A program made the position numbers and the translations under genes. A DNA stretch of 46,243 nt from Bacteroidota bacterium (GTDB lineage Bacteria > Bacteroidota > Rhodothermia > Rhodothermales > Bin80), in contig JAPPNA010000015.1 in the NCBI GenBank assembly GCA_028873925.1, forward strand, positions 1-46,243, given 5' to 3'. Of this stretch, positions 1,998 to 18,895 are shown in pieces. How positions within the stretch are numbered: position 1 is the stretch's first letter; each line of letters begins with the position of its first letter. Under the pieces are notes generated by a model, which had not been told where the DNA came from, did not search any database, and was given only the letters and a program-made list of their open reading frames with translations.

Positions 1998-3338
1998 ATG
2001 GGTAAGACCAGAACGCGTTACGTCTGTCAGGAGTGCGGCCACTCTTCCCCAAAATGGCTGGGCAGATGCCCGAGTTGCAGCTTCTGGGACACCATGGTGG
2101 AAGAGACGGGCAAAGAAGCAAAGCGACCTTCCCTGCGGCGCGCACAGCCGCAGCCCATGGATGTGGTGGAAATCGGTGAAATGCCCCGCATTGTCACCGG
2201 CGGTGCGGAACTGGACCGACTCATGGGCGGCGGCATCATGCGGGGTTCCATAGCCCTGGTCGCCGGCGATCCCGGAATCGGCAAGAGCACCCTCATGACG
2301 GAACTGGGGCGCTATGTGGACCCGCTGACGGTGCTCTATGTGACCGGCGAAGAATCCCCCCGGCAGGTCAAACTCAGGGCGCAGCGACTCGGCGCGGCTA
2401 CCGCAAATGTGCTGCTGCTGGCCGAGACTGATACGGCCCACATTCTGGATGCCGCCGAAGATACGGCACCGGATGTGGTTATTATTGATTCCATCCAAAC
2501 CATGTATCACCCGGATGTTCAAGGGGCCGCCGGGAGTGTGAGTCAGATCAGAGAGTGTGCCGCCGTACTGATGCGGGCGGCCAAAGCCATGAATGCGGCG
2601 GTATTCCTGGTGGGACATGTAACCAAAACCGGTTCCATTGCCGGGCCGCGCGTACTTGAGCATCTGGTTGACACCGTTCTGTACTTTGAGGGGGACCGGC
2701 ATCATGGCTATCGGGTGTTGCGGGCGGTTAAGAACCGGTTCGGCTCCACCAACGAGATCGGGGTCTTTGAAATGACCGGTACCGGTCTGAGGGAGGTATC
2801 CAATCCCAGCGAGATCTTCCTGGCGGAGCGGCAGGCCGGACTCAGCGGTTCGTCGGTCATCTGTTCGGTGGAAGGCACACGGCCGGTGCTGGTGGAGGTT
2901 CAGGCCTTGGTTACACCAACCTCCTACGGAACGCCCCAGCGGGCCGCAACAGGAATTGACCCGAGACGTCTTCAGCTGCTCCTGGCGGTCCTGGAAAAAC
3001 GGGAGGGCCTGAGTCTGGGCGGCCATGATGTATTTCTCAATGTGGCGGGTGGCGTGCGATTGGATGAGCCGGCGGCTGATCTCGGCGTGGCTGCGTCCAT
3101 CGCGTCATCGCTGCATGATCTGGCAATGGCCGCCGAAAATGTGCTGATCGGTGAAATCGGCCTCGGCGGAGAGGTTCGAGGGGTCAGCAAACTGGAACTG
3201 CGGTTGCGGGAATCCGAGAAAATGGGGTTTACCCGGGCAATCGTACCCAAGATCAGCCTGCAGGGCCTCGTCCCGGTACCCGGCATCAAAATCCATGCCA
3301 TAGAAAGTGTCAGCGAGCTGCTGGGGCTGCTCGGATGA
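1998..3338 (+). CDS. radA: DNA repair protein RadA/Sms
   Basis: A 446-residue protein. RadA is a RecA-related ATPase that drives branch migration during recombinational repair. All parts are visible: an N-terminal C4 zinc finger (C10, C13, C24, C27), Walker A GDPGIGKST (90-98), the RadA-specific KNRFG motif (245-249), and a C-terminal Lon-like domain containing EPAADLGVAAS. The ATG at 1998 gives the classical MGKTRTRYVCQECG start. The length is normal for the family. The sigma factor gene follows after 12 bp, so the two may be co-transcribed. Confidence 0.97.
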   Translation: MGKTRTRYVCQECGHSSPKWLGRCPSCSFWDTMVEETGKEAKRPSLRRAQPQPMDVVEIGEMPRIVTGGAELDRLMGGGIMRGSIALVAGDPGIGKSTLMTELGRYVDPLTVLYVTGEESPRQVKLRAQRLGAATANVLLLAETDTAHILDAAEDTAPDVVIIDSIQTMYHPDVQGAAGSVSQIRECAAVLMRAAKAMNAAVFLVGHVTKTGSIAGPRVLEHLVDTVLYFEGDRHHGYRVLRAVKNRFGSTNEIGVFEMTGTGLREVSNPSEIFLAERQAGLSGSSVICSVEGTRPVLVEVQALVTPTSYGTPQRAATGIDPRRLQLLLAVLEKREGLSLGGHDVFLNVAGGVRLDEPAADLGVAASIASSLHDLAMAAENVLIGEIGLGGEVRGVSKLELRLRESEKMGFTRAIVPKISLQGLVPVPGIKIHAIESVSELLGLLG

Positions 3339-16457: not shown

Positions 16458-17037
16458 TTTCAGACAGTGGCAAACAGGGTGGTGCTGACTGGAGAGTTAG
16501 GACATCCAGCGCCAATGAGTTTGATTTCACTTGACATCACCCGGCACGTCACTGGTCTTGTGGGAATCGGGTACCGGTTTACCGCGCGCTTTTGGATTCT
16601 TCGCGCTGAATTTACGGGCGCACTCAATGCCTGCTCAAGTGTACGGAACTTTGTCTGAGCCTACGGCTTCAGACCCGGTTTGCTCATGGTCCACTCTAAG
16701 CACAAGTTTGCCATATCTGCCAGAGCCGGTGCGAATTCCCGGCTTTTGAATACGTTTCCTTGGCCTGATCGGTGCGATCCTCCCCCGTTTTCCAAGCCAA
16801 TCTCCATTTTTGTGGTGGCTGAGCGGCCCATTGAGGCTGAATTCGGCTCGCGAAGGCCCGTTTGAACCAGTTCGGACGATCAATAAGGTAAGTACCATGA
16901 ATAGGTTGTGAATGTATTCGATTTTTTAACCCCAGTCCGACCTTGCGTACGCTTCGCGCTGAGGTGCGATGCGGCTCCCGGGGGTGGATGGCGTGACATG
17001 GACAGCGTATGCGGAGAGACTGGAAAGCCATCTGGCG
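16458..17037. other. Intergenic region before the group II intron
   Basis: 580 bp without a recognisable gene on either strand. It contains one good hairpin (GTCTGAGCC at 16653-16661 against GGC-T-TCAGAC at 16665-16674), not followed by a T-tract on either side. The last bases before 17038 would be the 5' exon of the intron. Confidence 0.5.
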
Positions 17038-17393
17038 GTGTGCCACGAGTGGCACTGAAGTGTTGTTCTTTTACAGGGCTGAAGTGTAACGCAACTGCGT
17101 TGGAGATGGAGGTAGGTCCTCCGCAGCCGCCTTTCAGGGGGAGGCTGCAAACCACCGGCTGGTGCTTGGCTTTAAGGGCCCGGTACTGAGCAAGTCTGGA
17201 AAAGGCGGGGGTACGGTGTGCCACGAGCGGCACAGAATTAGTGTTCTTTAACATTAGGGAAGTGTAGCGCAACTGCGTTGGAGATGGAGGTAGGTCCTCC
17301 GCAGTCGCCCTTCAGGGGGAGGCTGCAAACCGCTGGCTGCTGCTTGGCCCTAAGGGTCCGGTGGTGAGCGAGTCTGGAAAAGGCGGGGCTACG
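17038..17393 (+). repeat. Tandem duplication (2 x 178 bp) of the intron 5' end
   Basis: Copy 1 (17038-17215) and copy 2 (17216-17393) are exactly equal in length and directly adjacent, each beginning GTGTGCCACGAG and ending in TACG. By eye they are roughly 85% identical, with a perfect block around ctgcgttggagatggaggta. Differences cluster in two patches rather than being spread evenly. Confidence 0.92.
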
Positions 17394-17813
17394 ATCCCGT
17401 CAGGTGTGGACTATGGAGCTGAACGTAAGTGAACCGCTGTTGACGTGTCGTTACGCCTTTAAGTGTGGTCAAAACCGGGGTAAGCGTACCTACTCCGGGA
17501 CAAGGGTCAGCGGGGACCTGATTACTGGCTGATCGGCCACCGGCATATAGGCGGCAGGAACATAGTCTTGGCTCCAGCGCGGAACGTGGGAAGGTGTCGG
17601 AGGGGTGTTAAGGGAGCGTAGCAAGTGGGGAAGCCCCACAAGTTACTGAGTACCAATACCCTCCACGCTGGCGGATCGGCTCGTAGTAGTGTTGAAGCGT
17701 CTGTAATGGGCGTGGAGCGAAGGGGCCGACTCGGTTGGCTGACAGGACGCGGCAATCGCCCGAGCGAGAGGACTGCGTTCAAGAGGCAAGTGCCTGACTG
17801 GGCGGACCGAGAA

Positions 17814-17848
17814 GAGCCGTATGAGGTGAGAGTCTCACGTACGGTTCT
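17814..17848 (+). ncRNA. Group II intron domain V
   Basis: The 35-nt stretch folds as a textbook domain V. GAGCCGTA pairs with TACGGTTC, a two-nt CG bulge follows, the upper stem TGAGGT pairs with GTCTCA, and the loop is GAGA (a GNRA tetraloop). This is the catalytic core of the ribozyme and the strongest single sign of the intron. Confidence 0.93.
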
Positions 17849-17887
17849 GAGGGGGCCTGGGGGTGCAATTCCCCCGGGCTACCCGAC

Positions 17888-18895
17888 ACGCTTACTGCAT
17901 CTTCACCCGTCCAGCGCCCAAAACTCATGCTCTGAGCGCCTGTGAAGGGCCAAATCCAGGCCAAACAATCATCAAACGGTACACGGCCGCCGCCGCGGGC
18001 CATATAATCCAGCCAATCGCAGCACCAGATACCCTCAATCCGGCCCAAATCAATGGATCAGCCGCCAAAAAATCAATGCTAACAATGCTGCCTGAATGCC
18101 ACCGCACGCGTCACCAAAATCCGGGCACCGAATGACTGTTCAGCTCGCGAAAATGCCGCCCCATTCTGTTGAATTCCCTTGCATAAAAGGTAGGGAGTCC
18201 CCCTACAAGACATATCCGGGAGGCACATCATAAAAGGACAAAGTAGTGCGTTGTGTCCAACGCAAACTGACGGTCTGTGCTGATACACTGATGACGGAGT
18301 CAGCTGCGGTTTACGTGTCATAGCCCCTGCGGCGGGTTAGTCAGGCGACGTTTCCATACATGGTTTCTACCGATGCCGGTCTGAGTCCACGAGGACTAGG
18401 CCTTCGGACCCCGAAGGAGTCTAGGTGGAAAACGGCTTCAGTACCCGGGTGCCGGCATGACCGCCCGATGTAGCGTTACGCCTTCCCGCGCTTGAATGAC
18501 CGAACATCGGACCGGCATCTAAAGTGTCGGCCGAGACTAATTCACCCTCTCTATCCGGCCCGGTCCGACAAGATTGCCGATTCAGCAATGATTTAGTCGT
18601 TGCCTTTTGGATACGAAAACTTCGCGTCTTGGCCCGACCTTGAGGCCGCCGTGCGCGACATCCTGCAGTTGGGACAAGATTGTTAAGGCACAGCAGAAGC
18701 GGTACGCGGCATCGTGTCTACCCGGTCAGAATTGGAGTTCGAGGTGGCAACACAGACCTGATCTGCGTTCAATCAGCACACTCGGCCCCGATAATTCCGG
18801 CTGGATCCGATCCACACGGGCGTTCAGTGAGGGCATCGACCGAATACAGTCCGCTCAGGCGAGCAGCGCCACGCTCACCGAGGCCCACGGGAATA
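17888..18895. other. About 1 kb without a clear gene, hairpin-rich
   Basis: No supported protein gene. A 60-residue hydrophobic open frame on the minus strand (17925-18107, including DFLAADPLIWAG and WPAAAAVYRLMIVW) could be a small membrane protein or a fragment of one, but it has no family match. From about 18180 the DNA is full of inverted repeats: GTAGGG/CCCTAC (18190-18206), TGCGTTG/CAACGCA (18247-18264) and the set listed at 18365-18600. The ppdK gene ends at 18896 on the minus strand. Confidence 0.5.
18365..18600. ncRNA. Candidate structured RNA with alternative stems
   Basis: Perfect inverted repeats are packed in 230 bp: ATGCCGG (18373-18379) with CCGGCAT (18452-18458); GTCC/GGAC (18385-18396); CCTTCGG/CCGAAGG (18401-18417); CCGATGT/ACATCGG (18465-18510); TGTCGG/CCGACA (18525-18570); ATTGC/GCAAT (18573-18589), followed by a short TTTT. 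The segment ATGCCGGT (18373-18380) can also pair perfectly with ACCGGCAT at 18511-18518, so two folds compete. It matches no RNA class I know (RNase P, tmRNA, 6S and the common riboswitches were considered). The strand is undecided. Confidence 0.35.

Follow-up and report, generated by a model that had tools for sequence, protein, structure and literature searches.

A doubled group II intron 5′ end as the probable remnant of a nested twintron in a Bacteroidota genome

In Methanosarcina acetivorans, group II introns become nested by homing repeatedly to specific sites within others of their kind, a process that is balanced by deletions through homologous recombination and that leaves no functional flanking gene (reviewed in PMC4424553). 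In Thermosynechococcus elongatus, the TeI3/TeI4 twintrons contain ORF-less introns inserted, with good EBS/IBS pairing, at a site of related introns that lies in domain IV near the start of the ORF; the driver maturases are intact, and insertion into IS elements and one case of exon shuffling by intron-intron recombination are also described (PMC2882425). The twintron of Trichodesmium erythraeum, in which the inner intron resides in domain I of the outer intron, is complete and located in a protein gene, and its sequential splicing has been shown (PMC4649490). Finally, part of the Clostridium tetani intron C.te.I1 is duplicated, and its repeated 3′ part (domains V/VI) drives alternative splicing (PMC3919590; described in PMC4424553).

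The locus reported here is a decayed new example of known behaviour, namely nested group II intron homing with recombination losses. It shares nested homing, recombination losses and the lack of a functional flanking gene with M. acetivorans (compared through the review PMC4424553), but it differs in the insertion point, a domain-I hairpin loop within a sister intron, and in that no more than a remnant is left. As in T. elongatus, an ORF-less intron sits well paired in a related intron and exons would have been exchanged between introns; by contrast, the site is in domain I and an intact maturase of the same class was not found in the assembly. The location of the inner intron in domain I recalls T. 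erythraeum, whereas completeness, a host protein gene and sequential splicing set that twintron apart. Part of an intron is duplicated, as in C.te.I1, but here insertion has doubled the 5′ part, and pairing is missing at the outer site.

The window, as we call the whole stretch of 46,243 nt that was analysed, belongs to a draft genome of 3.93 Mb in 185 contigs (G000; 98.6% complete). Two intron 5′ ends of 178 nt each, at 17038-17215 (copy 1) and 17216-17393 (copy 2), follow one another without a gap at a spacing of 178 nt, and both open with GTGTGCC. Their identity of 86.5% (E 5e-58) excludes chance likeness. Both match the Rfam model RF01999 (group-II-D1D4-2; cut-off 36 bits), and the last hairpin of the model is absent from the match of copy 1 because copy 1 ends in the loop of that hairpin. 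The copies are parts of two introns and are not alternative 5′ ends of one: copy 1 is a 3′-truncated sister intron (A), 90% identical to a fragment at contig C183, and copy 2 is the start of a full intron of 672 nt (B). The features of the locus are collected in Table 1.

Table 1. Features of the doubled-intron locus (window coordinates)
Feature	Position	Strand	Description
5′ exon of A	16952..17037	+	Piece of a reverse transcriptase gene that belongs to another group II intron (H), ending ...PGVDGVTWTAYAERLESHLA/
Intron A	17038..17215	+	Initial 178 nt only, truncated in domain-I hairpin loop; RF01999 83.7 bits; 86.5% identity to copy 2
IBS2 of B (AAAGGCG)	17201..17207	+	In domain-I hairpin region of A; 7/7 Watson-Crick with EBS2
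IBS1 of B (GGTACG)	17210..17215	+	Domain-I hairpin of A, end in loop; 6/6 Watson-Crick with EBS1
Intron B	17216..17887	+	Complete, 672 nt, ORF-less; RF01999 102.3 bits, RF00029 65.6 bits; paired 5′ splice site 17215/17216
EBS2 (CGCCTTT)	17454..17460	+	Covariation scan across relatives
EBS1 (CGTACC)	17485..17490	+	Loop in 18-copy alignment
Approximate mosaic breakpoint	17496..17509	+	C72-like versus other-type intron sequence; best break intron nt 281-286, p 0.001
Domains V and VI	17812..17887	+	RF00029 65.6 bits and fold; branch-point A at 17881; 3′ end ...CTACCCGAC
3′ exon	17888..18203	+	Dispersed repeat of ~320 nt; four more genomic copies

Intron B has the features of an RF01999-type bacterial group II intron: a 5′ GUGYG, a domain I core, a domain V (RF00029, cut-off 40 bits) whose fold is, as expected, a bulged hairpin, a domain VI in which an A, seven nt from the 3′ end, bulges out unpaired, and a 3′ AY. 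No reverse transcriptase (RT) is encoded inside 17038-17887; an intron-encoded RT is not obligatory, ORF-less group II introns being accepted members of the group. A counterpart of B with a single 5′ end and 93% identity is present at C72:424-1095. The original prediction of an ORF-less group II intron that has two differing 5′ ends, a complete domain V, a domain VI-like hairpin and no RT was therefore right, in its coordinates as well, and the covariance-model check proposed with it places both 5′ ends in RF01999 and the 3′ end in RF00029.

The two exons derive from different loci, and intron-free copies of each exist. The 5′ exon is, right up to the junction, 97% identical to G000:C6:6718-6802, where an RT ORF runs through the site uninterrupted by an intron (...CATCTGGCG/GACCTGTGCGACCG; protein ERLESHLA/DLCDRVHSGAYR), downstream of a match to RF02005, that is, a domain-I class other than RF01999. 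Because the RT frame of this intron-free homologue continues past the junction, 17037/17038 is a true junction, that of intron A; on sequence grounds, a third group II intron (H), of another class, carries A in its RT gene. The RT at C6 continues off the end of its contig and is perhaps entire in the cell. At C64, a decayed RT fragment (910-1090; L094) begins at the codon where A splits the RT gene in the window; it was considered as a reciprocal recombination product and rejected, since no intron sequence precedes it.

The 3′ exon is 87-89% identical to the copies of the repeat at C27, C168, C130 and C107, in which the site is uninterrupted (...GCTGAAACG/ACGTTTAC). Thus, 17887/17888 likewise marks a genuine junction, although the intron to which it belonged lay in another locus. 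The repeat ends near GGGAGTCC, and its interpretation as the end of an IS transposase was rejected, the reading frames being unsupportive. In the comparison with intron-free copies that had been suggested for the flanks, both junctions accordingly held, but as junctions of two different loci. Intron B is inserted in A at base precision, as the junction and the guide match described below indicate; A does not, however, resume beyond B, and since the sequence from 17888 on is the dispersed repeat, the locus is the remnant of a twintron and not an intact one. This answers the earlier objection that no continuation of the first copy is seen after 17887: the 3′ exon is from another locus than the 5′ exon, so the remainder of A was probably removed by later rearrangement.

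The loop carrying EBS1 is obvious in the alignment of the intron family (18 copies), and its pairing with the 5′ exon of each copy exceeds shuffled pairings (p 5e-5, with the window copy included or excluded). When the relatives were scanned blindly for a further segment that covaries, a single position emerged, ~30 nt upstream of EBS1, which lines up with exon positions near -9 to -15; this EBS2 is based on few well-paired copies (permutation p 0.004, rising to 0.017 when the window copy is left out). In addition to this covariation among relatives, the guides of B pair with the inner junction at 13/13 (EBS1 6/6, EBS2 7/7), compared with 7.5/13 for the outer exon (EBS1 2.5/6, EBS2 5/7). In a background scan of 215,848 positions, a score of at least 12.5 was reached only by the inner junction itself, which is also the sole exact 13-nt target in the whole 3.93-Mb genome. 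One-mismatch targets number six genome-wide, half of them (3/6) being the same domain-I hairpin in B itself, in the C72 copy and in the C170 copy. Folding places the insertion point of B in the loop of a 7-bp hairpin in A, with the 3′ arm inferred from B and from a fragment at C166. The latter fragment (2758-3078; L015) begins at the domain-I hairpin in which A is truncated and reads GGGGTACGATCCCG without interruption. The site in the repeat (GAAACG/ACG) scores 10/13 with the guides of B in the same register, and a sibling of B may, on this match, have homed into the dispersed repeat.

The guide match and the flanks favour what had originally been mentioned as an alternative, a related intron inserted in a truncated one, and the locus is very probably the remnant of a nested twintron. 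In the first step, A would have inserted into the RT gene of H. In the second step, B, an ORF-less sister of A, would have reverse-spliced into the loop of a domain-I hairpin in A, with its guides EBS2 CGCCTTT and EBS1 CGTACC recognizing AAAGGCG and GGTACG, respectively; the result would be two 5′ ends in tandem, nt 178 of A directly abutting nt 1 of B. In the third step, a downstream exchange, most simply homologous recombination of B with a sibling intron in the dispersed repeat, would have removed the remainder of A and of the gene of H and made the repeat the new 3′ exon. The first two steps are legible in the sequence, and the third is one that we infer. If the locus were transcribed and a maturase present, the necessary pairing would be available only at the inner 5′ site (17215/17216), and splicing from there would restore no gene. 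The 3′ ends of A and H were lost, most simply by recombination with the sibling in the repeat, or were misjoined in assembly; the join between B and the 3′ exon lies within repeated sequence, and the assembler may have made it in error. Neither an intact A-B-A twintron nor the reciprocal recombination product was found in the draft of 185 contigs. Deletion by recombination of B with the 3′ part of A itself was also considered and displaced, because the foreign 3′ exon favours exchange with a sibling elsewhere.

Among the alternatives, the one that survives best, improbable as it is, is chance end-joining, in which a broken A was ligated, through a three-base ACG overlap, to the 5′ end of an intron resident in the repeat (...GAAACG/). 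Such an event would account at once for the doubled 5′ end and for the foreign origin of the 3′ exon and agrees with the 10/13 match of the repeat site in the same register, but it requires an exact hit on intron nucleotide 1 together with the lucky creation of the only 13/13 target in the genome. Slightly less probable than end-joining is a single intron, the duplication included, that could splice from either of two 5′ sites and so take an 850- or a 672-nt form. GTGTGCC at both 5′ ends, which are real junctions, and the true intron-exon boundary at the outer one speak for this reading, and the original prediction held that either 5′ end could be used; that statement finds no support in the guides, which pair with the inner site and not adequately with the outer one, whereas an alternatively splicing group II intron would have both sites paired. 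Moreover, the outer exon and the 3′ exon come from different genes, so that 850-nt splicing would restore nothing, and the remaining copies in this genome and in its family all lack a doubled 5′ end. A search for the domain-I/intron junction pattern across 84,980 genomes gave seven matches, all ordinary sequence without an intron match, and a similar pattern matched only the window among 16 genomes of the taxonomic family. If the locus were transcribed and a maturase present, the necessary pairing would be available only at the inner 5′ site (17215/17216), and splicing from there would restore no gene.

It is less likely still that the assembly has artificially joined repeated intron copies. 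The genome is a draft in which many contigs terminate in or beside introns; however, the A/B junction falls with base precision on the first nucleotide of B with a 13/13 guide match, and the assembler broke contigs at such repeats elsewhere, the downstream join of B to the repeat being the less safe one.

The nested-twintron reading is also consistent with the relationships within the intron family, which in this genome comprises the full-length, single-5′-end copy at C72 (93%), a shorter copy at C170 (77%) and a number of fragments. The C72 intron shares 98.9% identity with copy 2 but only 87.6% with copy 1, and many variants of copy 1 are common to the C183 and C170 copies; the two 5′ ends therefore come from two lineages of one intron family. 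Duplication of the first 178 nt by local unequal exchange or replication slippage, followed by divergence, would suit the exact tandem and equal lengths, but it is the least credible explanation of all, since the lineages were distinct before they met, C72 groups with copy 2 and not outside both copies, and the guide match is left unexplained.

Intron B and the C72 copy differ at two positions in nt 1-244 and at 49 in nt 245-672, the divergence rising from 0.8% to 11% at about nt 245-300. A large share of the differences beyond nt 244 is found in C72 alone, and C72 may therefore be the mosaic. On sequence comparison the pattern fits an exchange, with either the window copy or C72 as the mosaic, and the foreign 3′ exon is a firmer sign of exchange than the breakpoint.

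Elsewhere in the intron family, other arrangements were observed. Some copies from other genera within the taxonomic family contain an RT, as in the relative L024 (TIGR04416 438.9 bits, GIIM domain). In G004, several near-identical copies are located within the RT gene of another group II intron, and two family introns form a direct tandem (G004:C3:339864-345232; L036, L046), the first with the matched exon GGGATCT and the second beginning directly after an intron 3′ end. At C72 (1095-1118; L013), the intron end GAT is followed directly by GTGTGCCAGGAGGGGCACACTGG. This sequence resembles the start of a further, decayed intron and suggests a tandem insertion at an occupied site.

The search for a same-class maturase proposed with the original prediction found no intact one in the assembly. 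The genome has two RVT_1 proteins, namely an RT matching the anti-phage defence family Drt2 at C48 (1186-2643; L050; 456.6 bits, cut-off 390) and a protein of at least 868 aa at C31 (350-2953; L051), which has a long C-terminal part, matches group II RTs weakly and by score is not a group II maturase. The same-class RT remains as one broken piece with stops, beside a domain V at C169. With this piece and the perhaps complete RT of another class at C6, the present-day mobility of B appears doubtful.

The guides of the C72 copy score 11.5/13 on the domain-I hairpin, compared with 8.5/13 on the actual exon of that copy, and the hairpin of B itself is one base off in IBS1 (GCTACG versus GGTACG). 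It is tempting to speculate, although we consider it rather unlikely, that the guides of the B lineage are tuned to the conserved domain-I hairpin of their own intron family, that the lineage spreads by homing into sister introns, and that the one-base difference in its own hairpin is partly self-protective. The locus indicates a route by which a doubled intron 5′ end can originate, the landing of an intron in its kin and not alternative splicing, and it keeps a readable history that leads from an intron in the gene of an intron, through an intron in an intron, to an exchange of exons. It also raises the idea that some group II introns may target the conserved core of their sister introns.
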